From Allomuricauda sp. (GTDB taxonomy: Bacteria; Bacteroidota; Bacteroidia; Flavobacteriales; Flavobacteriaceae), in assembly GCF_013911645.1 (NCBI RefSeq), contig NZ_JACESV010000007.1, forward strand, positions 1 through 64,000: a stretch of DNA of 64,000 nt, written 5' to 3'. Shown here one piece after another: positions 2,409 through 23,031 of this stretch; within the stretch, counting starts at the first letter, position 1, and every line of letters begins with the position of its first letter. A program made the position numbers and the translations under genes. Below the pieces are notes generated by a model. It was not told where the DNA came from, searched no databases, and worked only from the letters and a program-made list of their open reading frames with translations.

Positions 2409-3416
2409 TCAAAATATCTCAGTGATTTTAACAGGTCTATTCTCCCTGAGTGATTTGATTGCTGCCAGACCTATTTTCAACGATTGAAGTCCATCATTTC
2501 CATCAACTGGTGTCTTGTCATTATTTTCAAGGCTCTTTGCAAAGTCACAGATTTCGTTCTTGTACGCTTCCCTATACCGTTCCAAGAAAAAATGTAAAGG
2601 CAAGGCTGCATGTATGCCCTTATCGTTGTACAATTTATGAGAATCCATAAAGTTGTTATTGGACTGGACCATGCCCTTGGATCCAAACACCTCCACCCTT
2701 TGATCATATCCGTAGGACGCCTCCCTACTATTATCAATTACGGCCATAGTACCATCGGAATAGGTAAGCGTTACCACTGCAGTATCTATATCACCTGCCT
2801 TGCCAATGGCCTCGTCTATAAGAACGGCCCCCTTGGCGTATACCTCCTCTACTTCCTTATCGACCACAAAACGGGCCACATCAAAATCGTGAATGGTCAT
2901 GTCCAAAAACAGTCCACCCGATTTTTCAATGTAACTTATGGGCGGGGCCCCGGGATCCCGGCTGGTAATCTTGACCAAGTGGGGCTGACCCACAGCTCCG
3001 GTCTTCACTAAATCCTTCACTTTTCTGAACTCTTTGTCGAACCTACGGTTAAAGCCCAACATGAGCTTGACCCCGGCCTTGTTCACAATATCGAGGACCT
3101 CCACTACCCTCTGTAATGATAGATCGAGGGGTTTTTCACAAAAGACATGGATACCGGCCTTTGCAGCCATCTCCACATAATCTGCATGGGTGTCGGTTGG
3201 TGAGCAGATCACTATGGCGTCTATGGGGGTCATTGTCAACATTTCTTCGAAGTTAGAAGCAATGTACGGGATGTTCTTGTTCTTGGCATATTGTCTGCCC
3301 TCTTCCAAGGGATCCATGGCCGCGACCACTTGTACCCCTTCCATTTGGCAAATGTTGCCCAAATGAATCTTGCCTATTCTGCCTAAACCGGCAACGGCGA
3401 ATTTTGGTTTTTTCAT
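2409..3416 (-). CDS. iolG: Inositol 2-dehydrogenase (Gfo/Idh/MocA family)
   Basis: GLGRIGKIHLGNI Rossmann motif, VFCEKPLDLS, context of iol operon. Confidence 0.9.
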   Translation of the reverse strand: MKKPKFAVAGLGRIGKIHLGNICQMEGVQVVAAMDPLEEGRQYAKNKNIPYIASNFEEMLTMTPIDAIVICSPTDTHADYVEMAAKAGIHVFCEKPLDLSLQRVVEVLDIVNKAGVKLMLGFNRRFDKEFRKVKDLVKTGAVGQPHLVKITSRDPGAPPISYIEKSGGLFLDMTIHDFDVARFVVDKEVEEVYAKGAVLIDEAIGKAGDIDTAVVTLTYSDGTMAVIDNSREASYGYDQRVEVFGSKGMVQSNNNFMDSHKLYNDKGIHAALPLHFFLERYREAYKNEICDFAKSLENNDKTPVDGNDGLQSLKIGLAAIKSLRENRPVKITEIF

Positions 3417-3434: not shown

Positions 3435-4340
3435 CTATAATCCCAATGTTATAATATAATCCCTATTTGACTTGGCGCATGCTTTTGGGTTTCCCATGCC
3501 CGGCAAAATATCTTGTTCCACTACAATCCAGTCATCGTATCCGGTTCGGCACAACAAATCCACAATTGCTTTAAAGTCAATATCTCCTTTGCCCAGTTCA
3601 CAAAAAACTCCTCTTTTGAGCGCATCGAAATAATCCCCTTGGGCCTTTCTGGATCTCTGGGCAGCTTTGGGGTCATAATCCTTAAAATGAACGTGCCAAA
3701 TCCTATCCCTATATTTTTCCAAAGCTTTTATCGGATCCCCACCTCCAAAGGCATAATGCCCCATATCGAGGCAAAGTCCGATCAGTTCGGGATCAGTAAG
3801 TTCCATAAGGGTATCTATTTCTTCAGGAGTTTCCACATAGCCAGCACAATGGTGATGGAAAACCGTCCTTATCCCGAAAGTATCTTTCACGGCCCTCGCA
3901 ATTTTTTCCGCCCCTTCGGCAAAAACCTGCCATTGTTTTCGATCCAACCCCATTTCGGGGGTTATCCTACCCGCATTTTGGGTCCTTTCCAATATCGAGG
4001 CATTGTCGTCCGCAAGAACGATAAAAGCATCACCATACCCTGCATTGTACATCAATTCGGCCACGCGCATAGCCGAAGCCTTCCCGTTTTCATGCTGATC
4101 GGCTTTGACCAGCGCAACGGGCACAAATGCACCGAGAAGCTCGAGTCCACGCTGGCTTATCTCATTCTTCAAAAGCGCGGGATCTGTGGGCATATATCCC
4201 CAGTCGCCAAGTTCGGTGCCCAAATACCCCGTTTCCTTGATCTCGTCCAAAACCTGTTCAAAACCTATTTCTTCAGATTTTTTTTCGAGATCGAATTCCA
4301 GAGCCCCCCATGAACAGGGGGCATTTGCTATCTTGATCAT
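3435..4340 (-). CDS. iolE: Myo-inosose-2 dehydratase (xylose isomerase-like TIM barrel)
   Basis: IANAPCSWGALEF...GYLGTELGDWGYMPTDP, VFHHHCAGYVETPEEID, LDMGHYAFGGGDP. Confidence 0.92.
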   Translation of the reverse strand: MIKIANAPCSWGALEFDLEKKSEEIGFEQVLDEIKETGYLGTELGDWGYMPTDPALLKNEISQRGLELLGAFVPVALVKADQHENGKASAMRVAELMYNAGYGDAFIVLADDNASILERTQNAGRITPEMGLDRKQWQVFAEGAEKIARAVKDTFGIRTVFHHHCAGYVETPEEIDTLMELTDPELIGLCLDMGHYAFGGGDPIKALEKYRDRIWHVHFKDYDPKAAQRSRKAQGDYFDALKRGVFCELGKGDIDFKAIVDLLCRTGYDDWIVVEQDILPGMGNPKACAKSNRDYIITLGL

Positions 4341-4350: not shown

Positions 4351-5823
4351 TTAAAATTTGCGCGACCAAATATTTGGCCAACGTTCTATGACCACCTTGG
4401 TCTGTGTGAAAAATTCAATGGCATGCTTCCCTTGGCCGTGCAGATCGCCAAAAAAGCTATCCTTCCAACCACTGAAGGGGAACTGGGCCATTGGTGCCGC
4501 TACGCCTATGTTGATCCCGATGTTTCCTGCATCAGCTTCGTTCCTGAATTTTCTGGCATTGGCACCACTGGTCGTGAAAAGGCAGGCCATGTTCCCATAA
4601 TTGCCATTATTGACAAATTGCAAGGCCTCATCAATGTTCTTCATCGATATCAAGCTCATCACAGGTCCAAAAATTTCAGTTTGTATCAACTCTTTGTCCA
4701 AAGCCACATTTTCCAAAATGGTGGGGGTTATAAAATTTCCCTTTTCATATCCGGAAATCGTTGCATTTCTACCATCCAACAAAAGTTTGGCCCCTTCGTC
4801 CACCCCTTTTTGGATGAGTCCTTCAATCCTTGTTTTGCTTTCTGGGGTAATCACCGGTCCCATATCCACATTGTCCAGACCATAGCCCGTGGTCCTGTTC
4901 TTTACTGTTTCATAAATGGAATCCTTGATCTCCCCTTTTTCATCTCCTACAGTGATAATGGTTGAAGCGGCCAAACACCTTTGTCCGGCACATCCATATA
5001 CTGAATCCGCAATGATCTTGGAAGACATTTCAATATCCGCATCGGGCAGAACCACAACAGGGTTTTTAGCTCCGCCCTGCGCTTGAACCCGTTTTCCATT
5101 GGCCGTTCCCTTGGAATAAATGTAACGGGCTACCGGGGTACTTCCCACAAAGCTTACTCCTTTTATGATGGGGTTTTCCAATATTGCATCTACGGATTCC
5201 TTTCCTCCGTGCACCAAGTTCAACAACCCGTCCGGAATATTGAGCTGATCGATCAGTTCAAAGACCTTCATCATGGTCATGGGCACTTTTTCCGATGGTT
5301 TTACGATAAAGGCATTCCCCGTGGCAATGGCGTAGGGCAAAAACCAAAACACGATCATTCCCGGAAAGTTGAACGGAGTGATGCAGGCCGCTACTCCAAG
5401 TGGTTGGCGGATCATCATCTCATCGATACCCGTGGCAATGTCCTCAATGACATCCCCTGCCATGAGCATAGGAGTGCCACAAGCAACTTCCACATTTTCT
5501 ATGGCCCTCTGGATTTCCCCAAGCGATTCAGCCCTGGTCTTTCCCGATTCGTTGGTAATGACTTCTGCCAACGCTTCCCGATTGTCCTCCAATAAGGTTT
5601 TGAGCTGGTACAGTACCTGTGTTCTTTTCATCACGGGTACTTTGCTCCATTCTTTGTATGCTTTATGTGCGGCCTTGGTCGCCCGATCTACATCCTTTGC
5701 GGTATCCGTACCGTAAGGGACCTTTGCCAAAACTTCTTGATTGGCCGGATTATGTACCGCTATCGAATCTTTTGATGCGCTTTCGGACCATTTTCCGTCA
5801 ATGTAATTCTTTAAAATATTCAT
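4351..5823 (-). CDS. iolA: CoA-acylating methylmalonate-semialdehyde dehydrogenase
   Basis: ALDH family, 490 aa, YGCAGQRCLAAST active-site Cys motif, ITPFNFPGMIVFWFLPYAIATGN typical MMSDH. Confidence 0.92.
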   Translation of the reverse strand: MNILKNYIDGKWSESASKDSIAVHNPANQEVLAKVPYGTDTAKDVDRATKAAHKAYKEWSKVPVMKRTQVLYQLKTLLEDNREALAEVITNESGKTRAESLGEIQRAIENVEVACGTPMLMAGDVIEDIATGIDEMMIRQPLGVAACITPFNFPGMIVFWFLPYAIATGNAFIVKPSEKVPMTMMKVFELIDQLNIPDGLLNLVHGGKESVDAILENPIIKGVSFVGSTPVARYIYSKGTANGKRVQAQGGAKNPVVVLPDADIEMSSKIIADSVYGCAGQRCLAASTIITVGDEKGEIKDSIYETVKNRTTGYGLDNVDMGPVITPESKTRIEGLIQKGVDEGAKLLLDGRNATISGYEKGNFITPTILENVALDKELIQTEIFGPVMSLISMKNIDEALQFVNNGNYGNMACLFTTSGANARKFRNEADAGNIGINIGVAAPMAQFPFSGWKDSFFGDLHGQGKHAIEFFTQTKVVIERWPNIWSRKF

Positions 5824-5862: not shown

Positions 5863-7461
5863 TTATGAATTGCTTCCGAGCAATATGTAAATCAGTATGG
5901 TGACCAAGCAAAGTCCAATGGACATGGCTTTGGTGTATTTCCATGAAACAAGGCTCACCGCACCCACATCCACCATGTCGTATGAGCTTTTTCGTGGATA
6001 AAAATGGGAGACCACAAACATGACGGCCACATTCAGGACAAACTCAATACCCCACAAATGCACGAAATGGATCCCGTGTTCCGTATAAATCCACGACATA
6101 AAAATGTAGAACAGAAGCCCAAATATCAATGCCGCCTTCGCCCCTGTGGCCGAAATGCGCTTCATGAAAAACCCTGCCAACAAAATGGATGCAATAGGGA
6201 TAAAATAGATACCGTTGAGCTCTTGGAGCAATTGGTAAAGTCCGTCCGGTGCATTGGCCATCATAGGAGCCGCGAATATGGCTACCACCGCCAAAATTGC
6301 CGATGTGGCCTTGCCGACTACCACAAGTTTGCTGTCACTTATATCCTTATTGATGTGCTTTTTGACGATGTCTATACTGAACAGCGTGGCCACAGAGTTG
6401 AGTACGGAGTTGAACGTGCTCAATACAGCACCCATGATGACGGCCGCAAAGAAACCGATCAGCCATGTTGGCAACACCTTTTTTACCAGTTGTGGATAAA
6501 CACTGTCCTGGTTGCCATAATAGGCATCCTGAAAATAATAGTAACAGATTACCCCTGGTAACACGATAATCAATGGAATCAAAATTTTGAACAAACCCGT
6601 GAGCAAAAGACCCTTTTGGGCCTCCTTGAGGTTTTTGGCTCCCAATGCTCTTTGGACAATGGTCTGGTTCATACCCCAGAAATACAACTGGTTTATGATC
6701 AATCCCGTGAACAGCACTTCAAACGGCAGTACGGAATCGGGTGCCCCAACGACATTGAACTTTTGAGGTGCAAATTCATATACTTCGGTTAGACCATGCA
6801 ATACATTGCCATCACCTATGGCCATCAGGGCGAGGAAGGGAATGAGCAAACCGCCCAACAAAAGGCCGAACCCGTTGATGGTATCGGAAAATGCAACCGC
6901 TCTCAACCCCCCAAAGATTGCGTAAATAGATCCTATGGCCCCAATGACCACCACGGTAATCCATAAGCCCTGTGTCTTGTCTACCCCCAAAATTTCCGAT
7001 ACGCCAAAAAGGCTCTCTATACCAATGGCACCGGAATACAGTACTATGGGCAACAGAGTGACCACAAAAGAAAAAATCAAGATGATGGCCACTAATGAAC
7101 GTGTAAAACTGTCAAAACGGTTCTCCAAAAACTGGGGAATCGTGGTGAGTCCCATTTTAAGGTATTTAGGTACAAAAAACACGGCTGCCACGACCAATGC
7201 TATGGAAGATGTCACTTCCCATGCAATAACGATGAACCCGTTGACGTATGAATTCCCGTTCATGCCGATCAAGTGCTCCGAAGATATGTTCGTTAAAAGC
7301 ATGGAACCAGCAATCACAGTCCCCGTAAGGCTTCTTCCACCCAAAAAGTAACCATCTGATGAACTCAGGTTGGTTTTCCTTAGACTGTACCAGGTAAAGA
7401 GTGCAACTCCTCCCGTAAAAAGGACAAACGATGCCAGCATGATTATAAAATCTGAATCCAT
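5863..7461 (-). CDS. Sodium:solute symporter (SSS family), probable inositol transporter
   Basis: Multi-TM, GGRSLTGTVIAGSMLLTNISSEHLIGMNGNSY, located inside iol operon. Confidence 0.85.
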   Translation of the reverse strand: MDSDFIIMLASFVLFTGGVALFTWYSLRKTNLSSSDGYFLGGRSLTGTVIAGSMLLTNISSEHLIGMNGNSYVNGFIVIAWEVTSSIALVVAAVFFVPKYLKMGLTTIPQFLENRFDSFTRSLVAIILIFSFVVTLLPIVLYSGAIGIESLFGVSEILGVDKTQGLWITVVVIGAIGSIYAIFGGLRAVAFSDTINGFGLLLGGLLIPFLALMAIGDGNVLHGLTEVYEFAPQKFNVVGAPDSVLPFEVLFTGLIINQLYFWGMNQTIVQRALGAKNLKEAQKGLLLTGLFKILIPLIIVLPGVICYYYFQDAYYGNQDSVYPQLVKKVLPTWLIGFFAAVIMGAVLSTFNSVLNSVATLFSIDIVKKHINKDISDSKLVVVGKATSAILAVVAIFAAPMMANAPDGLYQLLQELNGIYFIPIASILLAGFFMKRISATGAKAALIFGLLFYIFMSWIYTEHGIHFVHLWGIEFVLNVAVMFVVSHFYPRKSSYDMVDVGAVSLVSWKYTKAMSIGLCLVTILIYILLGSNS

Positions 7462-7488: not shown

Positions 7489-9348
7489 TTATAGGTAATA
7501 TTTTTGGGTCTTCTTATTGTTTTGATAGGTTTCAAAGGATTCTTTGACAGCGTCTTTTTCAGACACTTCGGCCACGGCAACATCCCACCAAGCAAAACCT
7601 GGCACCCCTTTTTTTCGATCCACTTCAATGTAGATCAAAGTGGTCCTATCAATGGTCTTCGCTTCTTTTAAGGCCTCCTTGAATTCGGCCACGTTGGATG
7701 CTTTTATGACATAAGCGCCCATGCTCGCGGCATTCGCCACATAGTCCACGGGCAACAATCCGCCATCAAGCTGATCCGTTGCTTCGTTTCGATATCGGTA
7801 GTATGTGCCAAAACCTTCGCTCCCCAAAGAAGCAGAAAGAGAGCCTATACTGGAGTAACCATCATTGTTCAACAAGATAATGGTAAGTTTTTGCCGTTCC
7901 TGAATGGCAGTGACTATCTCCTGTGACATCATCAAATAACTGCCGTCACCCACCATCACATAGATTTCACTATTAGGTCTAGCCATCTTGGCACCAAGGC
8001 CACCCGCAATTTCATAGCCCATGCAAGAGTATCCGTATTCCAAATGGAAACCTTTCGGATTCCTTGTGCGCCATAGTTTATGTAGATCACCGGGCAGGCT
8101 TCCTGCTGCACAGAGCACAATGTCCTTGGCCTCCGAAAAATTATTCACGGCACCTATGACCTCGCCTTGAAAAGCGGGTGTTCCGTTTTTTTCCGCATAT
8201 ATTCCGGATACAAAATCATCCCAGTTTTTGTTGAGTTCCAATACTTTTTTCCGGTAGGGTTCCCCCACTTCAAAATCTGAAAGTTGTTGATTCAATTCTT
8301 CGAGAATCGCCTTGGCATCTCCCACCAAGGGAAGGGCACCGTGTTTGAAAGAATCGAATTCCGTTACATTAATATTGATGAAACGGACATTTGGATTTTG
8401 AAACCCTGATTTGGATATGGTGGTAAAATCACTGTAACGGGTTCCTATGCCTATGACCACATCGGCTTCCTTGGCCACTTCTATGGCTCCTGGGGTTCCC
8501 GTAACACCGACTGCACCCAAATTTTGGGGCACATCATAGGGCAACGATCCTTTTCCCGCATAGGTCTCTGCTACCGGAATTCCTGTTCGGGTGACCATTT
8601 CTTCCAAAACATCTGTGGCACCGCTATAAATGGTCCCTCCCCCGGCAACAATAAACGGTTTTTTGCTCTTTTTAATGAGTGAGACGGCCCGTGCCAATAA
8701 GCTACGATCAGGCAATGTCCTACCTATTGTCCATATTTTTTTCTCGAACATTTCAGATGGAAAGTCATAAGCCTCAGCTTGGACATCCTGTGGAATGCTC
8801 AAGGTTACCGCACCTGTCTCCGCAGGAGAGGTCAATACCCGCATGACTTCAGGTAGGGCCGTAATCAGTTGTTCTGGCCGGTTGATTCGATCCCAATATT
8901 TTGAGACAGGCTTAAAACAATCGTTTACAGAAATATCTTGCGTAGTATTGGATTCAAGTTGTTGCAGTACGGGAGCCACTTGTCTTGTTGCAAAAATATC
9001 CCCGGGGATGAGCAGTACAGGAATCCGATTTATGGTCGCCAAGGCTGCGCCTGTGACCATGTTTGTTGCTCCAGGCCCTATGGAGGTGGTACAGACAAAG
9101 GTTTCCAAACGGTTCTTAACTTTGGCATAGGCCACTGCAGAATGGACCATGCCCTGCTCGTTACGGGCCACATAAAACGGAAATTCCGGGTCTTGGTGGA
9201 GTGCCTGCCCGATTCCTGCTACATTTCCATGTCCCAGAATCCCAAAACATCCGGCAAAAAACTTGTGCTCCCTGCCATCCCGTTCCACGTATTGGTTCTT
9301 AAGGTACGCGATGGTCGCTTGGGCCACTGTCAATCGTATTGTTTTCAT
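7489..9348 (-). CDS. iolD: 3D-(3,5/4)-trihydroxycyclohexane-1,2-dione acylhydrolase (decyclizing), ThDP-dependent
   Basis: RLTVAQATIAYLKNQYVERDG, GCFGILGHGNVAGIGQAL, ThDP motif VMVGDGSYLMMSQE. Confidence 0.95.
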   Translation of the reverse strand: MKTIRLTVAQATIAYLKNQYVERDGREHKFFAGCFGILGHGNVAGIGQALHQDPEFPFYVARNEQGMVHSAVAYAKVKNRLETFVCTTSIGPGATNMVTGAALATINRIPVLLIPGDIFATRQVAPVLQQLESNTTQDISVNDCFKPVSKYWDRINRPEQLITALPEVMRVLTSPAETGAVTLSIPQDVQAEAYDFPSEMFEKKIWTIGRTLPDRSLLARAVSLIKKSKKPFIVAGGGTIYSGATDVLEEMVTRTGIPVAETYAGKGSLPYDVPQNLGAVGVTGTPGAIEVAKEADVVIGIGTRYSDFTTISKSGFQNPNVRFININVTEFDSFKHGALPLVGDAKAILEELNQQLSDFEVGEPYRKKVLELNKNWDDFVSGIYAEKNGTPAFQGEVIGAVNNFSEAKDIVLCAAGSLPGDLHKLWRTRNPKGFHLEYGYSCMGYEIAGGLGAKMARPNSEIYVMVGDGSYLMMSQEIVTAIQERQKLTIILLNNDGYSSIGSLSASLGSEGFGTYYRYRNEATDQLDGGLLPVDYVANAASMGAYVIKASNVAEFKEALKEAKTIDRTTLIYIEVDRKKGVPGFAWWDVAVAEVSEKDAVKESFETYQNNKKTQKYYL

Positions 9349-9442: not shown

Positions 9443-10456
9443 TCAGAAACCGCCCTTGTCCTCTATAAATTTCAGTGATTCTTCCAGGGTCGGCATAAAA
9501 TTGGCACACCCATTTTTGGTCACCACCTGTGCTCCGCTGGCATTGGCCATCCGGCATGCTTTGTACAGGTCCCAGCCTTGAAGCAGACCATATAAAAAGC
9601 CGCCTGCAAATGCATCACCCGCCCCCAATACGTTCAAGACCTCTACCGGAAACCCGGGCACATCTTCCCGTGAACCATCTTTTGAATAGATGCTTACCCC
9701 TTCCGAGCCCCTTTTTACCAAAAGCGTCTCAATTCCCGAAGAAAGCAACCATGCTATTGATTTTTCAATATCCCCTTTGATTTCGGGTGCCGATATCTGT
9801 TGGTGTTTGATGACCACCTGTGATGCCTCGCTCAGAGTAGCCGCAAGAATTTCCTCTTCGGTACCCATCGCGATCTTGACTTTGGGCAAAATGGCTCTTA
9901 CGGTGAGTCCAAAGGCACGGTAGTCATGCCACTGGTCTGCCCTGAAATCGAGATCCAAAACAATATTAACATTATGTTTTTGGGCTATCTCGGCGGCAAA
10001 AAAGGTTGCGCTCCTACTGGGTTCAACGTTCATGGCCGTACCGTTTATGAGCAATATCTTATGATCTTGTATGTTGGCCTTCAGCACATCATCTATATCG
10101 ACTTGGCTATCGGCCGCATTATCGCGATAATAGACCAAGGGAAACCTGTCGGGAGGTTCGATGCCCAAAATGACCGCACTGCTTCGTGCTCCATTTTTGA
10201 CTGGGATGCAGTCTGTGTTCACCTTTTCCTTATTCAAAAAGTTGATGATGAATTCACCAACTTTGTCTTTGCCCACTGCGGTAAGTAGGCTGGGTTGGAG
10301 CCCAAGGCGGGCACAGGCCACCGCTATGTTCAGCGGAGAGCCTCCCACAAAGGCGTCAAATCCTTTGATATCATTGAATGGGTAGCCTATGTTCTGCGAA
10401 TACAGGTCTATGGAAGATCTTCCGAACGTAATCACATCGTATTTCTTATTGCTCAT
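9443..10456 (-). CDS. iolC: 5-dehydro-2-deoxygluconokinase (PfkB family)
   Basis: DVITFGRSSIDLYSQNIG, GGSPLNIAVACARLG, LGAGDAFAGGFLYGLL PfkB signature. Confidence 0.93.
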   Translation of the reverse strand: MSNKKYDVITFGRSSIDLYSQNIGYPFNDIKGFDAFVGGSPLNIAVACARLGLQPSLLTAVGKDKVGEFIINFLNKEKVNTDCIPVKNGARSSAVILGIEPPDRFPLVYYRDNAADSQVDIDDVLKANIQDHKILLINGTAMNVEPSRSATFFAAEIAQKHNVNIVLDLDFRADQWHDYRAFGLTVRAILPKVKIAMGTEEEILAATLSEASQVVIKHQQISAPEIKGDIEKSIAWLLSSGIETLLVKRGSEGVSIYSKDGSREDVPGFPVEVLNVLGAGDAFAGGFLYGLLQGWDLYKACRMANASGAQVVTKNGCANFMPTLEESLKFIEDKGGF

Positions 10457-10459
10457 CTT

Positions 10460-11335
10460 TTAGTGTTTGTTCATTTGTGCGGTAACCAAGGGCAACCTAT
10501 TGTCTTTTGTTTTCCATGAACCATAGATCCACTCATGATCGGGATCTGTGGTATTGGCCAAGCACTGGTCGGTACCGGCCAAAAAATTGAGGTAGTAACA
10601 ATGGAAACCATGTTCTGCCACTACTGGATGAAATCCCTTTGGAATCATAACCACATCATTGTGGCGTGGCCTTACTATTTCGTCCAATGAACGGTCTGCC
10701 GTATATACTTGTTGAATGGCATAAGCCTCTGGTTTTTGGAATTTGTAGAAATAGGTTTCCTCTTGAACGGGCTCCAATACATTTCCTTCTACATCTAAAA
10801 TTCGCTCATCATGCTTGTGTGCGGGGAAGGAACTCCAATTGCCCGATGGGGTGTACACTTCTCGCACCACGATCTTACTGCATCCAAAACCGGGCGGCAC
10901 CAAGTCGTTGAACTGCCTTGTTGCGTTGTCCCCACCAAAAATTACCGTGGGCGTTTCTTCGGGCGTGACAAACTTTGCTGGATATTCCCCATCAGATTTG
11001 CACCATCCGAAGGCAATATCCAAAGTATCGCTCGTTGCGGTCAGTTCAAACCTACTGTCCCTTGGAATGTAGAGGGTGTGTGCTACTCCGCTGAACACAT
11101 CTTTCCGCCCATTCCTCGTTTCCCATGTTCCCTTATCGCTCTTCACTCTAAAGTTTCCGCTCAGGAGCACAATAACCATTTCATTGTCTCCCGTACTATG
11201 TTCCCAGTTCTCTCCCCTTCTCATTTCCCTGGCCCCAAAACTCAGATAGTTCCAATTTGCTGTCTCTGGAGTTATGCTATGGTATGTTCCTGGTGTTTTA
11301 AGGGGTTTGACCAATAAATGGGATTCTTTTCTCAT
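10460..11335 (-). CDS. iolB: 5-deoxy-glucuronate isomerase
   Basis: ETANWNYLSFGAREM, FPAHKHDE, ETYFYKFQKPEAYAIQQVYT, HNDVVMIPKGFHPVV. Confidence 0.93.
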   Translation of the reverse strand: MRKESHLLVKPLKTPGTYHSITPETANWNYLSFGAREMRRGENWEHSTGDNEMVIVLLSGNFRVKSDKGTWETRNGRKDVFSGVAHTLYIPRDSRFELTATSDTLDIAFGWCKSDGEYPAKFVTPEETPTVIFGGDNATRQFNDLVPPGFGCSKIVVREVYTPSGNWSSFPAHKHDERILDVEGNVLEPVQEETYFYKFQKPEAYAIQQVYTADRSLDEIVRPRHNDVVMIPKGFHPVVAEHGFHCYYLNFLAGTDQCLANTTDPDHEWIYGSWKTKDNRLPLVTAQMNKH

Positions 11336-12297
11336 CTGCTCATTACTATTTTGTTGTTTGTCCTTATTCTTTCTGCCTTGCCAGTGGCTCCCAAAAGTTC
11401 AAATTTTTGCAACATGAACTTTTCGTATTCTTGTATGTATTCCTTTCCGGGCAATATTGGGTCGAACAAGTCTGGAGTCTGTTTAAAAAACTCCCGATGC
11501 ACCCTGGCCCAGAGCAATCTGGTGTCGGTCGCAATATTGATCTTGCAAACACCGTACTTTATGGATTCTACTATCTCTTCCGGAGAAACACCCGCTGCTC
11601 CCTCGGTCAACTTTCCACCTGCTTGGTTGATCCGTTCTATTTCCTCTACATTGACGGCAGAGCCCCCGTGCAGTACAATGGGGAAACCGTTCAACCGATC
11701 CTGTATTTCTTTTAGTATATGGAATTGGATTCCCTGGCCTCCCGAAAATTTATAGGCCCCATGGCTGGTCCCGACCGCTACGGCAAGACTATCACATTTT
11801 GTGGCATTGACAAACACCGCCACTTCGGATGGTTGGGTGTAGCAGGAATGTTCCTCTGCAATGTCGATATCGTCTTCCACACCTGCGAGCACACCCAATT
11901 CAGCCTCCACGACCATATTGGCCTGGTGGGCCTTTTCCACCACGGTACGTGTCCGCACCACATTGGTCTCAAAATCATCGTGGGAAGCATCGATCATCAC
12001 AGATTGGTACTTTTTCGAGTTAATGGCGTCAAAGGCATGCTCTTCATTGCCATGGTCCAAATGAACGGCATATACAGCCTTGGGATAGATCTTTGCCGCG
12101 GCATCGATCATGGCGGACAACATTTTTGCATGGGCGTAGCTCCTTGCCACGGGGGTCAACTGCACTATAAAAGGAGCATTGGCCCGCTGTGCGGCACTAA
12201 AAAGCCCGTGCACCTGTTCCATTGTAAAAACATTTACGGCCGCAATGGCATATTTGCCGTAGCAGTCGTTAAAAAAAATCTTGGGAGAAACAACCAT
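11332..12297 (-). CDS. Class II fructose-bisphosphate aldolase family (IolJ-like DKGP aldolase candidate)
   Basis: YAVHLDHGN, VEAELGVLAG, PIVLHGGSAV, first gene of iol operon; 4-bp overlap with iolB. Confidence 0.85.
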   Translation of the reverse strand: MVVSPKIFFNDCYGKYAIAAVNVFTMEQVHGLFSAAQRANAPFIVQLTPVARSYAHAKMLSAMIDAAAKIYPKAVYAVHLDHGNEEHAFDAINSKKYQSVMIDASHDDFETNVVRTRTVVEKAHQANMVVEAELGVLAGVEDDIDIAEEHSCYTQPSEVAVFVNATKCDSLAVAVGTSHGAYKFSGGQGIQFHILKEIQDRLNGFPIVLHGGSAVNVEEIERINQAGGKLTEGAAGVSPEEIVESIKYGVCKINIATDTRLLWARVHREFFKQTPDLFDPILPGKEYIQEYEKFMLQKFELLGATGKAERIRTNNKIVMSR

Positions 12298-12352
12298 GTC
12301 CTTTTATTTTTTTAGTGGTCAGACAAAAGCCTTAAACCGAGGTTAAAAGAAC

Positions 12353-12385
12353 AAAAAAAACGCTATGCCCGAAAGCATTGGGGCG
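12353..12385 (-). terminator. Possible weak terminator/attenuator between lacI-type gene and iol operon
   Basis: Minus strand cgccccaatgctttcgggcatagcgtttttttt: CGC/GCG and ATGC/GCAT pairing with bulge, followed by 8 T. Confidence 0.35.
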
Positions 12386-12393: not shown

Positions 12394-12409
12394 ATGCAAA
12401 GGTTTGCAT
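12394..12409. promoter_or_regulatory. Putative LacI-type operator upstream of iol operon
   Basis: ATGCAAAGGTTTGCAT inverted repeat; same motif at 22764 and 22927. Confidence 0.75.
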
Positions 12410-12425: not shown

Positions 12426-13469
12426 TCAATCGGAAATACCGACCGAATCTTCTCTGGAGGATGCCCTTACAACCAGTTCCGGCTTAAATACTTCCATTCT
12501 GAATTCTTCCTTGGAATTTTTGTTTTTAATGCGTTGCAACAATATCCTGGCAGACAACATGCCCAAACTGTACACCGGTTGCCAAACGGTGGACAATGCA
12601 GGGGAAAAGTATAAGGAATGGGGCTCATCATCAAAACCGACGATTGAAATGTCACCAGGAATAGCCAGTCCCATTTTTTTGGCCACGTGCATGGCCGAAG
12701 CGGCTATATTATCATTAATGGCAAATATGGCATCTGGGGCATCCTCAAGTTCCAGTAATCTCTTGGTGGGTTTGATACCATCTTTATGGGAAAAGCCCTT
12801 AACGTGTTGGATGTAGTCTTTTCGTAAGGGCACCTTGTTCTTCTCCAGAGCATCAAGATAGCCTTGGAGCCTATGCTTTGTGGTGCTCAGGTTCAAAGGG
12901 CCGCCCAAATGGGCTATTCTTTTGCAGCCGGAACGTATGAGGTATTCCACAGCTTGTAATGCCCCGGAATAATCGTCCACCAAAACCTTGTCGCTTTCCA
13001 ACCCTGGGCAGTCCCGATCAAAAACCACCACGGGCACATCGTTCCTCTGCAAATTCTTGAAATGGTCAAAACTCTTGGTTCCTGATGATGGGGATACCAA
13101 AATGCCATCCACGCGCATCTTGGACAACTTCTTCACCAAGGTGACCTCTTCTTCGTAGGATTCATTGGAAATACAAATCATGATATTGTATTCCGTTGGT
13201 CCCACCACATCCTGGATGCCCGTAATAATAGCGGAAAAAAAGTGACTGGTTATTTCGGGCACTATGACCCCTATAGTATTGGATTTTTTTTGAAGGAGCC
13301 CCAAGGCCATGGGATTGGGTTGATAATCCAGTTCCTCGGCCAATTTTTTGATGGCTTTCTTGGTATCGTCCCCGATAGCGGGATGATCGTTAAGAGCCCT
13401 TGAAACTGTGGAAGGGGCAAGGTTGAGCTTGGCGGCAATATCCTTTAAGGTGACACGTCCCTTTTTCAT
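12426..13469 (-). CDS. LacI family transcriptional regulator
   Basis: KKGRVTLKDIAAKLNLAPSTVSRALNDHPAIGDDTK HTH plus periplasmic-binding-like sensor domain. Confidence 0.95.
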   Translation of the reverse strand: MKKGRVTLKDIAAKLNLAPSTVSRALNDHPAIGDDTKKAIKKLAEELDYQPNPMALGLLQKKSNTIGVIVPEITSHFFSAIITGIQDVVGPTEYNIMICISNESYEEEVTLVKKLSKMRVDGILVSPSSGTKSFDHFKNLQRNDVPVVVFDRDCPGLESDKVLVDDYSGALQAVEYLIRSGCKRIAHLGGPLNLSTTKHRLQGYLDALEKNKVPLRKDYIQHVKGFSHKDGIKPTKRLLELEDAPDAIFAINDNIAASAMHVAKKMGLAIPGDISIVGFDDEPHSLYFSPALSTVWQPVYSLGMLSARILLQRIKNKNSKEEFRMEVFKPELVVRASSREDSVGISD

Positions 13470-13661: not shown

Positions 13662-14534
13662 CTAGATGTCTTTCAACCAATCCAAAAGAAACTGGCCCCA
13701 TTTTGCAAGTCTACCCTTTTGTAGGGCCAGGGCAAATCCATGTCCGCCATACGGGTAAATGTGCATCTCAACCGATATCCTTTTGTCCTTGAGTGCCTTG
13801 ACCAGCTGAAGGCTGTTTTCCAGCGGGACCACTTCGTCATCGGCGCTGTGGAGGATAAATGTGGGAGGCGTGTTTTCCCTTACCTGTAATTCATTGGAAT
13901 AGTGCTCCACCAAATCGTCGGAAAGCTGCTCCCCCAACAAGTTTTTCTTTGAACCGTTGTGAGTGTAGTCTTCTTTCATTGTCACCACTGGATAGATAAG
14001 TGCCATGAAATCCGGTCGGTTCTCATCTTCAAAGTGTGTCCCAAGTGTGGAGGCTAAATGCCCTCCTGCCGAAAAACCCATTATTCCGACCTTGTTGGGG
14101 TCAATTTCCCATTCTTCCGCATTTGAGCGGAGCAGTTCCATTCCCCTCTTGGCGTCCAGCAATGGGGTGAGGTGCGGGACCTCATTGGATTCGTCCTCAG
14201 GCAGTCTGTATTTTAGAACGGCCGCCGCTATGCCATAGCCATTGAGCCATTTGGCAACATCCGTTCCTTCCTTGTCGTAGGCCAACACACCGTATCCTCC
14301 CCCGGGACATATCATGACCATCTTGCCTGTTTTGATGACGCTGGATGGCAAATACACTTCCAAACTAGGCCCTATGACTTTTGAAATCACCCTGGCCTTT
14401 GGATTCTTTTGTACTTCTTCGAGATTTGATTCTTTGGCATTCGGGATTTTTCCTTCCCAGAGGGGGATAATGTGGTTTTGGGCCATACACAAATGGAATG
14501 ACCATAAAAATAGTATTGATACAATATATTTCAT
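13662..14534 (-). CDS. Secreted alpha/beta hydrolase (BD-FAE/acetylesterase-like)
   Basis: Signal peptide, MVMICPGGGYGVLAYDKEG oxyanion motif, IMGFSAGGHLAS nucleophile elbow, GGHGFALA His. Confidence 0.88.
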   Translation of the reverse strand: MKYIVSILFLWSFHLCMAQNHIIPLWEGKIPNAKESNLEEVQKNPKARVISKVIGPSLEVYLPSSVIKTGKMVMICPGGGYGVLAYDKEGTDVAKWLNGYGIAAAVLKYRLPEDESNEVPHLTPLLDAKRGMELLRSNAEEWEIDPNKVGIMGFSAGGHLASTLGTHFEDENRPDFMALIYPVVTMKEDYTHNGSKKNLLGEQLSDDLVEHYSNELQVRENTPPTFILHSADDEVVPLENSLQLVKALKDKRISVEMHIYPYGGHGFALALQKGRLAKWGQFLLDWLKDI

Positions 14535-14613: not shown

Positions 14614-16527
14614 TCAATCGCAGCCAACGACTTTTTCCAAATCGTTCTTTACTTTCTGTTGTTCCACATAGTTGGTGTACAGGCCTTCATATGGCCTATC
14701 GGAAACGGCAAACATGACATCGGTGCAACGGATATTGTCGTACTGACCGTCACCCGATGCGCTTTGCATGTGGAAAATCCGACTGATGTAGCTGTCGTCT
14801 TTTGCATCAATGAACGCCCCGATATCATTGCCATAGTTCCCAGGGTTTCTCCAATCGGGCGACACCAATTTGTTGTTTTCCCTGTACCGTCTGAGTTGGA
14901 GGAAGTTTTCTTGCAGTATGCCATCAGTTGTGGCAAAGGGCTGAAAGTTGTTGGTGTGCTCACTCTTGGTTATGTTGTTGTTCGGCTGTATATAGAGCAC
15001 CACTTTTCCGAGCAGCCCCCCTTCCTTCGACCCGTTTTCGTCCATAAAGTACAAGGTCTTGCCATCAACAATCTTGTTTTGATCCACCAGATCCTCATTA
15101 TGGAACCCGCTGGAACTATGGTACCTCAGCTTGTCCCCAAACTTGTCCTGCATCAAACGAATGATGCTTTGCCATTTGGCATTTGCCATCCATTGTTCGT
15201 ACTCCTTGAGCTCTGTCATAATGAACAGGGGTTCGTGCTCTGGGTTGTCATTGCTCCAATTGGAGATATATGTTATCCAATCTTCCAAGAAAACGGACGA
15301 TGGATTGTCCACGCTTAAATCTACCTCATCTCCTGGGGCATCATGTCCTAGAACAAGTTCCCCTATCGCTATAGACATCAATTGGACGGATGTATCTTTT
15401 TGTAAAAAAAGGTAATATCCATTTTCAGATGGGTACATACCCGCTTCTGCACCGGACAACATATCAGATTCATTGTTGTACTCATTGACCAAATTAGGCT
15501 TGCCATTGTCCATGATCAATTGCGAACCCTTTACATCACCATTGGCGCCATAGGAGTTCACAAAGAGTTTTCCATTGGTGATTGAAGCCTGTACCGTGCC
15601 AGTGAGCTGGCTTGATGTGCTTGTTTGGTTGCCGTTCGTTGTCCAAGTGTTTCCATTGGTATCGACCGATTCGACCTTGAAATTAGTGACGGTATTTACA
15701 TTGTGCCTAAACATGTAAAGGTTGTTATCCTGCTCAAAAGGATACAGGGTTTCATTGGAGGGAACGGAATTTTGTTCATAGCGTGTTTCTCCAAGGGCAA
15801 CATCTCCACCATCAAAAGAGATGTCGATAATCTTATAGGTGGTACTGTCCTTGGCATGCACTGCTGTGTAGGCTGTATTGTTGAACACAAAAGTGGACAG
15901 GTTCACATTGGTGTCCCCTATGTTTCCTGAATGCAAGGGAGTCAGTGAAGTGCCATTGAAACTGTAAATGATAAAGTCACCGGCCAATGGTTCGTATCCA
16001 AAAATATATAGCCCGTTCTGAAAAGGCAGTATTGAAAATTTCCTATCGACTTCGTCCAAACCTTCTCCTGTATTCTGGTAAACTATTTGTGGATTGCCAT
16101 TGTCCAGGCTGAATATTTTGATACTGCCCCCGATTTTTGAATAGGAAAGGATATGTGGCTCTCCCATGTAATCGAACACGGTAAATCCATCCACTTGCTC
16201 GGCCCAAGTTGTCTGCAAGGCTTTTTGGGTATGGAAGGTGAACAGGTCGAATTCAAAAAACCTGAGCCCCCTTTCCAATTGTGTCTCGATTCCTTCCCTT
16301 TTCATCCCTCCAAGATTTCCTGAATAGGAATTGTGGGTCCCTGTAAAGAAAAACTGCCTATATATGGCGGTCGTGGAATCCGTAACAACAGGATCTGGAT
16401 CTGGATCCGGATTCTGCCCCTGTTTTTGGGGGTCTGGTTTCACAGCGGGTTCTCCGCTGTCCGATGAGCAACCGTAGGCCACAAAAAAGCCCAACAATGC
16501 GATACTGAAGAGAGTTGATCTTGTCAT
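14614..16527 (-). CDS. Phosphatidylinositol-specific phospholipase C-like lipoprotein with large beta-rich insertion
   Basis: Start likely MTRSTLFSIALLGFFVAYGCSS (lipobox); FFTGTHNSYSGNL...QLERGLRFFEFDLF and ELVLGHDAPGDEVDL...PLFIMTELKEYE match PI-PLC X-domain half-motifs. ORF opens at 16575. Confidence 0.8.
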   Translation of the reverse strand: MTRSTLFSIALLGFFVAYGCSSDSGEPAVKPDPQKQGQNPDPDPDPVVTDSTTAIYRQFFFTGTHNSYSGNLGGMKREGIETQLERGLRFFEFDLFTFHTQKALQTTWAEQVDGFTVFDYMGEPHILSYSKIGGSIKIFSLDNGNPQIVYQNTGEGLDEVDRKFSILPFQNGLYIFGYEPLAGDFIIYSFNGTSLTPLHSGNIGDTNVNLSTFVFNNTAYTAVHAKDSTTYKIIDISFDGGDVALGETRYEQNSVPSNETLYPFEQDNNLYMFRHNVNTVTNFKVESVDTNGNTWTTNGNQTSTSSQLTGTVQASITNGKLFVNSYGANGDVKGSQLIMDNGKPNLVNEYNNESDMLSGAEAGMYPSENGYYLFLQKDTSVQLMSIAIGELVLGHDAPGDEVDLSVDNPSSVFLEDWITYISNWSNDNPEHEPLFIMTELKEYEQWMANAKWQSIIRLMQDKFGDKLRYHSSSGFHNEDLVDQNKIVDGKTLYFMDENGSKEGGLLGKVVLYIQPNNNITKSEHTNNFQPFATTDGILQENFLQLRRYRENNKLVSPDWRNPGNYGNDIGAFIDAKDDSYISRIFHMQSASGDGQYDNIRCTDVMFAVSDRPYEGLYTNYVEQQKVKNDLEKVVGCD

Positions 16528-16546
16528 ACAACTAATATAAAGTATA

Positions 16547-16572
16547 AAAAGGGACCTGATCGGGTCCCTTTT
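16547..16572 (-). terminator. Intrinsic terminator-like hairpin inside susCD–PI-PLC operon
   Basis: AAAAGGGACC-cgatca-GGTCCCTTTTT on minus strand between the DUF285 stop and the PI-PLC start. Confidence 0.55.
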
Positions 16573-16592
16573 CAATTAAAAATAAATCCATA

Positions 16593-18116
16593 TCAATTAT
16601 CCCTGTTGCAGAACTCATTATTATCTGTTTTGTCAGCAACAAAATTGGGTTTATAGGCATCTTCCCATTGGGGTGCGTCGGTATCAAAATCGTAATTGCA
16701 CATTACGTTGCTCACGTCCCAACCGGAAAGGTCTTGGTTGAACACCTTGTTTTCTTTGAACAGGTTCTGCATATTGACCACATTGCTCACGTCCCAACCG
16801 GAAATATCTTGGTTAAAGGCGCAATTTTCACCACCGAACATGGTTTCCATGTTGTCCATACTGCTCAAGTCCCAATTATTGATCGAGGGATTGTTAAATC
16901 CGCTGTCCTTGAACATGTCCCACATGCTTACTACCTTGCTCATATCCCATGCACTAAGGTCGCCGTTGTAATCGGATTCCCTGAACATCTCACGCATGGT
17001 AATCACATTGCCCAATTTGTCGCCCCAACCCGAAAGGTCCTGATCAAAGGCATCGTTCTGCCTAAAGGTGGACTGGAAACTGGTCACATTGGAAACATCC
17101 CAATCACCAATGGGCTGGTTGAACGGGCAGTTCCTGAACATGTTTTTCATGGTCGTGGCACTACTCACATCCCATCCGGATATGTCTTGATCAAAAGCGG
17201 TATCCCTGAACATGGTCTCAAAAGTGGTCACATTACTTACGTCCCATTGATCTAAAGGCTGGTTGAAATTATTGGCCTTATAGAACATGTCCCACATGCT
17301 TGTGACACCGCTCACGTCCCAGTGGTTGATATTACTGTTAAAGGATGTGGCTTCCCTGAACATTTCCCTGAAATTGGTGGTTTCACTTAGGTCAGGGGCA
17401 TCTTCTGCTGTTATCTGCAGATTGGTGCACTTTCTAAAATAACCGCCGTCATTGCCCAACTTAACTTGTCCCCAGTTGGTGATGTCGATGATGTTTGCCG
17501 CACTCTCCTTGGTCATATCAAAGTTGAACCCATTGATTTCTCCCCAAACAGTGACCGTATAGTCACCGGCCTCTGCGTAGGTGTGCGTGGCAGACTCAAG
17601 GTCGTAGGTGGCCACTATACTTTCCTGCCCATCGCCCCAGAATACTTTGAAGTTGTAGGTCCCGGTCTCTATAAGTGGAAGGGTTATACTGCCATTGGCA
17701 TCCACTCTCCAAACGGACACAAATTCATCATCGGACTCAAACGGTTCCAATACTTTTAGATTGATGGTGTATTCCTCTTCCAGCCCAAATCCGGATACCA
17801 AAAGGGAGGAAGTCCCAGTAGAAAAACTTTCCCCGGATGCGGGCGAGGTTGTGATTCCATCCTGCAAATGGATGGTGAGCACCATGTCACTGGCATCACA
17901 ATTTTCCGGAAGGGAAGCTGTAATGCTTCTGGAATAATTGGTAACAGAAACCTCAATATCTTCCTCAATACAAGGGTTTTTGGAGGCTTCTATGATTATG
18001 GAGTCGATATAGACGTCCCTGTCGTCAAGGGAAAAGTCTGTACTGTCCACATCACAGGAACTGAGTGCAGCTCCGATAAATGCGATCAATAGGAAAAATT
18101 TATAAAATCGTTTCAT
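16593..18116 (-). CDS. BspA/DUF285-repeat surface lipoprotein
   Basis: Lipobox ALSSC; PKD-like segment (THTYAEAGDYTVTVWG); about nine W-D-V-S-N-V-x-x-M-x-x-M-F repeats; third gene after susC-susD. Confidence 0.88.
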   Translation of the reverse strand: MKRFYKFFLLIAFIGAALSSCDVDSTDFSLDDRDVYIDSIIIEASKNPCIEEDIEVSVTNYSRSITASLPENCDASDMVLTIHLQDGITTSPASGESFSTGTSSLLVSGFGLEEEYTINLKVLEPFESDDEFVSVWRVDANGSITLPLIETGTYNFKVFWGDGQESIVATYDLESATHTYAEAGDYTVTVWGEINGFNFDMTKESAANIIDITNWGQVKLGNDGGYFRKCTNLQITAEDAPDLSETTNFREMFREATSFNSNINHWDVSGVTSMWDMFYKANNFNQPLDQWDVSNVTTFETMFRDTAFDQDISGWDVSSATTMKNMFRNCPFNQPIGDWDVSNVTSFQSTFRQNDAFDQDLSGWGDKLGNVITMREMFRESDYNGDLSAWDMSKVVSMWDMFKDSGFNNPSINNWDLSSMDNMETMFGGENCAFNQDISGWDVSNVVNMQNLFKENKVFNQDLSGWDVSNVMCNYDFDTDAPQWEDAYKPNFVADKTDNNEFCNRDN

Positions 18117-18134: not shown

Positions 18135-19511
18135 TTAATAGCCGGGGTTCTGTTCCATATCCGTAATATCAACTTCAGCCTGTGGAATAGGGGCCAACAA
18201 TCTTATGGGGTCAACAGTGATACCTCTTCCTTCCGTTTGGAAGAAACTGTTCATAGTCTGTATGGCTTTGCCCGTTCGCAGTAGGTCGTACCAGCGGTGG
18301 CCTTCACCTGCCAATTCCAACCTTCTTTCGAAGGCAATGGCATTGCGCATGCTTGCTTGGTCGCTTGCAGTGGTGTTGTCCAGACCTGCTCTGTTCCTTA
18401 CCCTATTGAGATAAATCTCCGCAGTAGAGGTCTTGTTGTTCTCATTGAGGCATTCCGCATATAGTAGCAACACATCCGCATACCTGACCACAAAGTGGTT
18501 GTCCCCACCATCTTCCCTGTTGCTGTTGGGTGATGGTGTCCATTTGTTGATATAGTACACATTGTTGGATTCGTTGATCAAGTTTCGACGAAGATCTTCT
18601 GCCTCGTATAAATTGTACAGGGAACTTTCCATGGCCATGGCCCCCATGCCCCCTTGGTCATCAGGTTGGGTAAATATGTAATAGAACCGGCTTCCTTCAC
18701 TCATTCCATCTAAATTGGAAGTGTACTGAATACTGAAGACATCTTCATCGTTGCCTTCATTTTCCACACCAAAAAGGCCATCAATCGGAGCAAGGTCATA
18801 TTTTTCGGAACCCACGATGATTTCCAATTGTGCCTCTGCTTTGCCAAAGTCCCCTAGTCTCATGTAATGCTTAGCAAGAATGGCACGTGCTGCATATTCA
18901 TTTGCCCTGCCCACGCTATTGGTTTTTGGCAGAAGTGTTATGGCATCCAACAGGTCTGCCTCGATTTGCGTATAGATTTCAGACACTGGGGTCCGGACAT
19001 CATCAAACGCATTGGTAGGATCGTCCACCTCCAAAACCAAGGGAACATCCCCATAGATTGTTGTAAGCTGCTCATATAAAAATGCTCTGATGAATTTCAT
19101 CTCACCAATCCTTATACTTTTCAAGGATTCACTGTCATATAACACATTATCGATTACATCCAACACGGTATTTGCATATAAGATGCCCTCATAGGCATTC
19201 TCCCATATACTCCCAACAAAACCAGTGGTGCTGATCCATGAAAAATCTTCCAAAGGTCTCGCACCTCCATTGGAGTTTGGAGCTTGGATATATGCATTGT
19301 CAGAAGGAATCTCTCCCCACAGTATCATGTAATAATCATAGAGTGCCTGTAACTCATTATATGTAGCGGTCACTGTCGATTCAACATTTTCCTGTGTGGT
19401 GTAATAGTTGTCGGCCAAGATGCCTGTTTCTGGAAATTGGTCCAGTTCGTCTTCACATGCAAAGCATGAAAGCATTGCCAAAGTGTAAATATATATTCGT
19501 TTCATAACCAT
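18135..19511 (-). CDS. RagB/SusD family nutrient uptake outer membrane lipoprotein
   Basis: LSCFACEDELDQFPETG, C-terminal YADVLLLYAECLNE...RNRAGL, RRLELAGEGHRWYDLLRTGKA. Confidence 0.95.
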   Translation of the reverse strand: MVMKRIYIYTLAMLSCFACEDELDQFPETGILADNYYTTQENVESTVTATYNELQALYDYYMILWGEIPSDNAYIQAPNSNGGARPLEDFSWISTTGFVGSIWENAYEGILYANTVLDVIDNVLYDSESLKSIRIGEMKFIRAFLYEQLTTIYGDVPLVLEVDDPTNAFDDVRTPVSEIYTQIEADLLDAITLLPKTNSVGRANEYAARAILAKHYMRLGDFGKAEAQLEIIVGSEKYDLAPIDGLFGVENEGNDEDVFSIQYTSNLDGMSEGSRFYYIFTQPDDQGGMGAMAMESSLYNLYEAEDLRRNLINESNNVYYINKWTPSPNSNREDGGDNHFVVRYADVLLLYAECLNENNKTSTAEIYLNRVRNRAGLDNTTASDQASMRNAIAFERRLELAGEGHRWYDLLRTGKAIQTMNSFFQTEGRGITVDPIRLLAPIPQAEVDITDMEQNPGY

Positions 19512-19519: not shown

Positions 19520-22500
19520 TTATTGGAATGTTAGATTGATGCCCGCAGAAATGAGTCTGGGAACTGCCGTTGTGCCAAAAATATGTCCTCTGTTCAGTGG
19601 GTTGCCCGTGTTGCCTCCATCAGGGTTCATTCCCCTGAACTTGGTCCAAGTGTGCAGGTTATTGGCAGAGACATATACGCGTAGGTTCTTTAGGTGCAAC
19701 TGTTCCAACACGTCGGAAGGTATGTTATACCCCAACTGTACGCTTCTCAATCTCAGGTAATCCGCATCAAGTACGTTGTAATTGGTGGGGTTTCTACTGG
19801 CAGACCTTGTAGCGGTGTTGCCATAAGCATCGGGAGGGGCTAAAAAACCATCCGGATTATGTACAGGGTCCCAATAATTGTTAAAATAGTGGTAGTTGGT
19901 ATTGGTAAACGCCTCCCCATACTCCAAATATCTGGAAGTCATCTCATCAAAGGCCATTCTTCCCACGGTTCCATTGAAGTTCAAGCTCATGTCAAACCCT
20001 TTATAGGCGAGGTTTATTCCAAAACCATAGGTTACTTCGGGGTTGTAGTCGCCCAAAAGCACCCTATCATTGGCATCAATAGTATCGTTTCCATCCGTGT
20101 CTTGGAATATGTAGTCACCCACTTCTGCAGATAGGGTAGTATTCTTTCTATTGTTATATTCAGCTACTTCTTCCTCGGATTTCAAAATCCCGATGATCTT
20201 ATAGCCATAAAGGTTCGCCAAGGACTCCCCTACCCGGGTAATGAACCTTTGATTTCCTCCTTCGAACAACTCGTCGGCACCTCCAAGGGAAAGAATCTCA
20301 TTATTGTTGGTTGCCAAATTGGCATCAAAGCCAAAGCTTAGATCCCCCAAGTTGAAATTAGATCCGCTGAGTTGGAATTCCCAGCCCTTGTTTCTCATTT
20401 CCCCAATGTTCTGAAGAGAATTGTTGAAACCAGTATGTTTGGGTACCGGCCTGTCCAACAAAAGATCGGTAATGTCTGCTACGTAGTAATCGACCCCTAG
20501 CCTGATTTTGTTGAAAAAACTCAAATCCACACCAAAGTTGTTGGAAGTATTAGTCTCCCAAGTAAGGGCATAGGATGGGGCACTGGACGGGGCGGCACCG
20601 GGATGGAGCGTACCATCATAGGGATAGTCCCTTCCTGTGCCAATGGAGGCATACTGTGCATAGTTGCCAATCTGATTATTCCCTGTTTGCCCCCAACTAT
20701 ATCTCAATTTTGCAAACGTGAGTATATCATTTTCCGGAAAAAAGGATTCATTGCTCAACACCCAACCTGCGGAGAACGAACCAAAGGTTCCATACCTATT
20801 GTCCCTTCCGAATCTGGAGGAACCATCGGTACGTATGGATCCCGATAGGAAATAGGTATCCTTGTAATCATACATAATCCTACCAAAATAGGAGAGCTGT
20901 GTCCATCGGCTTCGTGATGCCCCGGCCGTCTGCACAGTAGAGCCATCTATATTTTCAATGATATCGTTTGGAAAATCGAACCCGTCAACGGACAGTCCAG
21001 ATGAAGAGCTTTTCTGAAAACTTTGTCCTGCCAATGCATTGAACGAATGCTGGCCAATATCGAAGGTATAGTTGGCCGTGTTCTCTATGAGAACATCCCC
21101 CTGATCGCTTCTGCTTTCCGACCCCTGCTGAGGATTTCTTTCACTGATCAATTCACGGTATGCACCGGTGAGCATTGGCGCATACTGGTCGGTAAACTTG
21201 TAGTCTAACAGATAACCCAATGAGGTCTTTAGTTCCAGATTGTCTATAGGCTCATAGGAAAGATAGGCATTTCCGAAAGTCCTGAACTCTCTTCTATCAT
21301 ACTTGGACAATTCTGCCATGGCCACAGGGTTTTCTTGCAAGTTTGCATTATAGGGCCTGTTTGCACGAATTTGTGCCTCAATATTGTACCCGGTTGGGTG
21401 CGAATCGTCATAAGCAGAGAAAAATGGGTACATATATACCATGGCTCTGCCTGCTGGATCTATAGGGAACCTATATTGGTTACTTCCATTGGTAAGTCCT
21501 CTTTCAGAATAGTAACCGTTCATGTTTGCCCCGAACTTCAAACGTTCACTCAATTTGGTGTTGAACTTGATGTTAGTGGTATAACGTTTTTGGTCTGCAG
21601 TAATCACTATACCTTCCTCATCGGTGTACCCCAATGATACTGAATAGTTGGTGGCATCGTTCGAACCCGATACATTTATATGGTGGTTCTGTACTATCCC
21701 TGCCCTGTACACAGCATCTTCCCAGTTAAAATCCATTAGACCCTGTTCGTTATTCAGGTACGGAAGGGTATAATCCAATAAAAGTTCCCGCACGTTTGCT
21801 CCATTAGCAATACGCTGTGCCTCTGTGTCATTAACACTAACATTGCTATGGTTTTTCAGATATGCGTTGTTTCGTCCGTCCCTAAAGAAAATGGCCGCAT
21901 CATAAGCGTTCAAAAGGTCGTATGTCCCGGTACGTTCTTGTATCCCGGCCACGGAATTAATCTGAACTGTCGTTTTTTTGCTCCGTCCCTCTTTCGTTGT
22001 AATCATGATAAGCCCGTTGGCCGCCCGAGATCCATAAATGGCCGAAGAAGCCGCATCTTTTATCACATCAATGGATGCAATGTCATTGGGATTGATGACA
22101 TTGAGGGAGCTTCCTTCTGCCAACGGAAAACCATCGACCACCACGAGTGGGTTTGCGCTTCTGGTAATGGAGCCCGCACCCCGTATGGTTATAGTATTAC
22201 CATCCCCAGGGTTTCTTGCGTTGGTCAAAATGTCAACCCCAGGTAGTTTTCCTACTATGGCCTGGTCGAAGTTGGCGTTGGAATACTCCTGGATACTTTC
22301 TGCATCTATACTGACCACCGAGCCAGTGATTTTTTCCTTGGAGCTTGTCCCATAACCAATGACCACCACATCATCAAGAACATTGCTGGCCTCTTTCAAA
22401 ACAAAATCCAGGGTGAATACAGATGGGCCAACAGTTTTTTCCATTGTTTCAAAACCCATATAAGAAGCCACCAAAACAGGTGTGTCGGAACTGGTTTCAA

Positions 22501-22681: not shown

Positions 22682-22763
22682 ATTAGGTTGATTATAATTG
22701 TTAATTCGGCAACCAAATAACAATAAAAAAACGATTTCGTTAATACGCCTACATCAAAACTTT

Positions 22764-22779
22764 ATGCAAAGGTTTGCAT
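22764..22779. promoter_or_regulatory. Putative LacI-type operator upstream of susC
   Basis: ATGCAAAGGTTTGCAT, identical to the repeat at 12394. Confidence 0.75.
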
Positions 22780-22926: not shown

Positions 22927-22942
22927 GTGCAAACCTTTGCAC
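22927..22942. promoter_or_regulatory. Putative LacI-type operator upstream of PLC/GDPD–alkaline phosphatase fusion
   Basis: GTGCAAACCTTTGCAC; reverse complement GTGCAAAGGTTTGCAC, same core as the other two. Confidence 0.75.
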
Positions 22943-23031
22943 AATATTTTTTTAAAGAATGTATTATTTGTCGTTGTTTTGAATTGTCCAATTTTCCCAA
23001 CTGGGTCTGTGGATGAATCTATCCTTTATAA

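Follow-up and report, generated by a model that had tools for sequence, protein, structure and literature searches.

Genes and putative operator sites of the locus

The window, i.e., the whole stretch of 64,000 nt of DNA of the marine flavobacterium Allomuricauda sp. analyzed here, contains an iol operon whose first gene encodes a class II aldolase, a gene for a LacI-family regulator of 347 aa, a presumed SusCD operon with an alpha/beta hydrolase gene in last position, and a divergently oriented gene for a GDPD/alkaline phosphatase fusion protein (Table 1). The sodium:solute symporter of the iol operon probably mediates inositol uptake across the inner membrane, as suggested by its genomic context. 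In the SusCD operon, the gene encoding a DUF285-repeat protein is an unexpected companion in an operon devoted to nutrient uptake. For the weakly PI-PLC-like protein no match was found in the PDB and, since its Pfam match also stays under the cut-off, a substrate assignment based on this gene was rejected. At positions 31941-41733, the window carries a second GDPD/alkaline phosphatase fusion gene, accompanied by a separate alkaline phosphatase gene, its own SusD/SusC pair and genes for a FecR-type anti-sigma factor and an ECF sigma factor. No operator copies were detected at this locus and thus the control of the two related phosphodiester systems appears to differ.

Table 1. Features of the locus with window coordinates, strand and basis of the assignment.
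Feature	Position	Strand	Basis or remark
iolG, inositol 2-dehydrogenase	2409..3416	-	TIGR04380, above cut-off
iolE-like inosose dehydratase	3435..4340	-	TIGR04379, 214 bits, under curated cut-off of 290
iolA, (methyl)malonate-semialdehyde dehydrogenase	4351..5823	-	TIGR01722, above cut-off
Sodium:solute symporter	5863..7461	-	Pfam SSF
iolD	7489..9348	-	TIGR04377, above cut-off
iolC, 5-dehydro-2-deoxygluconokinase	9443..10456	-	TIGR04382, above cut-off
iolB, 5-deoxy-glucuronate isomerase	10460..11335	-	NCBIfam TIGR04378, above cut-off
Class II aldolase, first iol-operon gene	11332..12297	-	Pfam/NCBIfam
T-rich promoter-like element, operator 1	12344..12360	-	+48..+64 from operator; conserved in fixed register; putative promoter role
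Operator 1 (O-iol)	12394..12409	-	16-mer ATGCAAAGGTTTGCAT, core 12395-12408; ATGCAAACCTTTGCAT when read toward the iol operon
LacI-family regulator	12426..13469	-	Pfam LacI (PF00356) and Peripla_BP_3 (PF13377), above cut-off
Alpha/beta hydrolase	13662..14534	-	Pfam
Weakly PI-PLC-C1-like protein	14614..16575	-	PF16670, 22.8 bits, under gathering cut-off of 29.9
DUF285-repeat protein	16593..18116	-	Within the presumed SusCD operon
SusD	18135..19511	-	Gene next after SusC
SusC-type TonB-dependent transporter	19520..22681	-	Likely ATG at 22681; listed ORF start is TTG at 22723
T-rich promoter-like element, operator 2	22714..22730	-	+48..+64; includes TTTATTGTTATTTGG; putative promoter role
Operator 2 (O-susC)	22764..22779	-	ATGCAAAGGTTTGCAT, core 22765-22778; ATGCAAACCTTTGCAT when read toward SusC
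Operator 3 (O-gdpd)	22927..22942	+	GTGCAAACCTTTGCAC read toward the fusion gene; core 22928-22941
Similar element, operator 3	22964..22980	+	12 bp closer to operator (best offset -12); putative promoter role
GDPD/alkaline phosphatase fusion	23032..24858	+	Downstream of operator 3

The original prediction had placed a shared operator between the lacI-type gene and the first iol gene, and by eye had seen its core recur in the window only before two other genes of the system. The position of this first copy was confirmed, lying between the stop of the LacI gene and the start of the aldolase gene, both on the minus strand. A pattern search agreed on the window, and the exclusivity holds genome-wide: the 14-nt core TGCAAANNTTTGCA occurs in exactly three copies in the whole genome (3.98 Mb, 99.96% complete), all before genes of the proposed system. 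A control pattern gave one copy in the same search and none once the centre was restricted to S S. Allowing one mismatch added merely four scattered sites, compared with three for the control, which corresponds to the background level. Two-mismatch sites in the window did not exceed the number obtained with shuffled sequences, and exact sites alone were used. Operators 2 and 3 are inverted copies of each other, and 83 bp separate the core of operator 2 from the likely SusC start codon, a distance found identically upstream of SusC in several relatives.

All three sites consist of two 6-bp arms (7 bp including the flanks) around a 2-bp centre. The predicted inverted repeat of LacI type stood insofar as each site is an even palindrome within the 14-22 bp class and precedes target genes, but the palindrome is imperfect, with CC/GG instead of the central CG pair at all three window sites. 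This does not exclude the motif from the family because, besides the central CG of 1173 out of 1303 published LacI-family motifs, 49 show a different centre and in 29 it is degenerate (PMC4052901). No exact site precedes the lacI gene itself in this genome, and autoregulation was dropped for this reason, though sites upstream of lacI exist in some relatives (G221, G113, G006, G294, and one MAG).

Co-occurrence and conservation in relatives

Among 301 Flavobacteriaceae genomes, including that of the window, 10 contain an orthologue of the LacI gene, with 61-77% identity to the window's LacI. The motif TGCAAASSTTTGCA is present in all 10 (32 copies), compared with 24 of the 291 others (26 copies; Fisher p=9e-11), i.e., a background of about 0.09 copies per genome where the orthologue is missing. 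iolD was identified in 19 genomes, comprising all 10 with the LacI orthologue and nine in which no orthologue was detected, and none of these nine carries a motif copy. Five of the nine were examined. The aldolase gene of G100 is truncated by a contig end, and in the remaining four the iol genes are more diverged or rearranged. The motif tracks the LacI gene and not iolD. Loci L165-L168 (G053, G066, G082, and G096) bear iolD within diverged or rearranged iol genes and have neither LacI orthologue nor operator. In G231, which belongs to the same genus as the window's genome, LacI, iolD, and motif are all missing, and thus the locus is accessory within the genus.

That the motif is bound by a transcription factor other than the adjacent LacI would fit the 24 genomes in which one or two copies occur in spite of a missing orthologue. 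Considering that the motif follows LacI rather than iolD, and that both further LacI paralogues identified in the genome carry Lys instead of Arg at AA-20, this explanation is improbable. Chance palindromes or a DNA or RNA secondary-structure element acting without any regulator would be harder still to reconcile with the data. Palindromes of 14 bp do arise now and then, as the background in genomes without LacI illustrates, but three out of three copies precede genes of one system, they are conserved across genera, a 2-nt centre is too short for the loop of a hairpin, and the co-occurrence with LacI already contradicts a chance origin, which therefore hardly merits consideration.

Placement of the site is conserved as well. 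In 18 of 20 loci with LacI beside iol genes, an exact site lies in the interval from LacI to the first iol gene or immediately before the latter, as in an IolR-type arrangement. The exceptions are L029, where the site has one mismatch, and L042, where it is located before LacI on the other side and not before the aldolase gene. The DNA flanking the conserved sites has diverged among the iol loci of the relatives. L043 and L044, which encode LacI homologues of 59% identity, contain neither iol genes in the retrieved DNA nor an exact intergenic site. G294 possesses two LacI homologues of this clade (L016 and L017), one of which has an in-frame TAA.

The genes behind the sites differ considerably among relatives. 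SusC genes in this position are just about 30% identical to the SusC of the window, while the GDPD/alkaline phosphatase fusions mostly share 60-62% identity. Further genes preceded by a site encode calcineurin-like phosphoesterases, a type I phosphodiesterase, an Exo_endo_phos protein, and GH92 proteins (mannosidases). Thus, regulator and operator are more constant than the outer-membrane modules. In Dyadobacter (L090, L105, and L106), LacI homologues with 44% identity are linked to iol genes, and ATGCAAACGTTTGAAA precedes iolB and, in a second copy, a SusC gene. These loci represent a sister form of the regulon in which the centre is CG.

Regulator and DNA recognition

The regulator combines an N-terminal LacI-type HTH domain with a periplasmic-binding-protein-like core, as identified by Pfam, and CcpA and PurR are among its closest solved structures. 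Based on a residue numbering checked on CcpA, its recognition helix is of the TVSR type (T21, V22, S23, and R24) and the hinge helix contains A55 and L58 (AA-51 and AA-54). Arg is located at AA-20 within the TVSR helix, a class linked to G at position 6 of the half-site (PMC2978694). In the phylogenetic tree, the iol-linked LacI proteins of the Flavobacteriaceae/Prolixibacteraceae and of the Spirosomataceae/Leadbetterellaceae form one clade (support 100/94).

Of the 22 exact sites located near LacI genes of the Flavobacteriaceae/Prolixibacteraceae clade, 17 have a CC/GG centre and five a CG centre; two additional matches with an AA/TT centre, not counted here, have unrelated flanks. Homologues with Leu at AA-55 account for these 22 sites, whereas all 31 exact sites of homologues with Arg or Lys at this residue have a CG centre. 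Leu at AA-55 was nevertheless not accepted as an explanation for the CC/GG centre, since the Dyadobacter iol-linked LacI proteins have Leu together with a CG centre. Furthermore, published covariation links AA-55 to the adjacent base, NT-2 (PMC2978694), which is unchanged here, and this likewise led us to discard AA-55 as determinant of the centre. The relation of AA-55 to the operator centre is a correlation alone, restricted to one clade and confounded with phylogeny.

Orientation of the proposed operators and promoter-like elements

Of 26 unambiguous sites, each of which serves one gene only, 23 show CC and three show GG in the centre when read toward the target gene; a count of 29:4 is obtained when hand-assigned shared divergent sites are taken in. 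Paired sites within one divergent region, including the pair of the window, point in opposite directions.

A T-rich element with a consensus of about TTTTTATTGTTATTTG is found at +48 to +64 in fixed register with the operator. At offset 0, the profile of the iol promoters reaches its highest score on the SusC promoters (summed 80.9, compared with -109.9 for the next best offset), and the same holds for the reverse comparison. TTTATTGTTATTTGG, part of the element at operator 2, is unique in the genome. Clusters of TAnnTTTG-like boxes occur at +57-59 and +46-48, with a spacing of about one helical turn, and the largest cluster was matched by none of 2000 random shifts. Given the position of the flavobacterial -7 box at -12 to -5 (PMC9723704), these clusters would put the operator centre near -63 or -52. 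The operator is therefore probably situated upstream of the core promoter, with the reservation that the sequences are related and that the same pattern could result if a promoter cassette had been duplicated. In consequence, ordinary repression should not be presumed, and the upstream placement seems easier to reconcile with activation or contact-dependent repression than with simple blocking.

A variant in which LacI acts from this fixed upstream position as an activator or as a polymerase-touching repressor, and not as a promoter blocker, draws on the constant distance of the T-rich element, the box positions, and the prevailing orientation of the CC centre. It is a serious candidate with less than an even chance of being correct, because register and orientation could also have been preserved by duplication from a shared ancestor of the iol and SusC promoters, and because repression is the usual role of local regulators of the LacI family.

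Proposed regulon

We propose that the three sites are, very probably, the operators of the adjacent IolR-like LacI, which would tie together the iol operon, the SusCD operon, and the GDPD/phosphatase gene. The operator role of the sites, as originally predicted, is well supported by the co-occurrence of motif and regulator, the lack of motif copies in iolD-bearing genomes without a detected orthologue, the conserved placement of the sites, and the TVSR/Arg20 class of the recognition helix. A LacI dimer would bind each 16-bp site with one HTH domain per TGCAAA arm, and the hinge-helix leucine L58 would sit at the central step of the operator. In this way, the three sites could couple inositol catabolism, outer-membrane uptake by SusCD (together with the PI-PLC-like gene), and the phosphodiesterase/phosphatase fusion. 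The effector is probably a metabolite of the inositol pathway. Concerning the sign of control, repression relieved by an inducer has slightly better than even prospects, and activation or contact to RNA polymerase from an upstream site would come close to an even chance. One may further speculate, as a rather unlikely scenario, that this LacI abandoned the central CG in favour of an asymmetric CC step, reads its operator in a fixed direction relative to transcription and acts as an activator from upstream of the promoter, which would allow new modules for uptake and for lipid/phosphodiester cleavage to join the inositol regulon via one operator-promoter cassette.

The proposed regulon links cytoplasmic inositol catabolism to SusCD-mediated uptake and to phosphodiesterases, i.e., the PI-PLC-like and GDPD/phosphatase proteins and, in relatives, other phosphoesterases and GH92. 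These gene links suggest that inositol phospholipids, glycerophosphoinositol, or glycosyl-inositol lipids serve as nutrients; judged from gene content, inositol phospholipids or their glycerophospho derivatives are likely substrates. The operator provides a sequence tag for finding further genes of this kind, and its oriented non-CG centre poses a testable question on DNA recognition in the LacI family.

Comparison with known systems

The E. coli PurR operator ACGCAAACGTTTGCGT and the cre sites of CcpA both have a central CG. The sites described here have the GCAAA..TTTGC arms in common with them, and the regulators share the hinge-helix leucine, but the centre is CC/GG and different effectors are to be expected. 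At AA-55, the regulator has Leu in place of the Ala of CcpA, and PurR has Lys. In Bacillus, inositol catabolism is controlled by an IolR of the DeoR type, which agrees with the regulator studied here in the controlled pathway and is unrelated in protein family and operator. The same applies to the RpiR-type IolR of Sinorhizobium (PMC8877191).

iol clusters have been reported in 2% of the Flavobacteriaceae (PMC9430895). In the open-licence papers covered, we found no description of a flavobacterial regulon comprising inositol genes, SusCD, and LacI. LacI-family IolR regulogs, known from other lineages, fall into seven non-orthologous inositol groups (Ravcheev et al. 2014, PMC4052901, Table 1), and this phylum was sampled in that survey by one Bacteroides group only. 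Features in common with these regulogs are the control of inositol genes by a LacI-family protein, the even palindrome, the local regulon, and an operator position about 30-140 bp from the start codon. Unlike in these regulogs, the centre is mostly CC/GG and the regulon includes SusCD and phosphoesterase genes, to which relatives add GH92 and other phosphoesterases. The system is apparently an undescribed, new regulog of a known kind.
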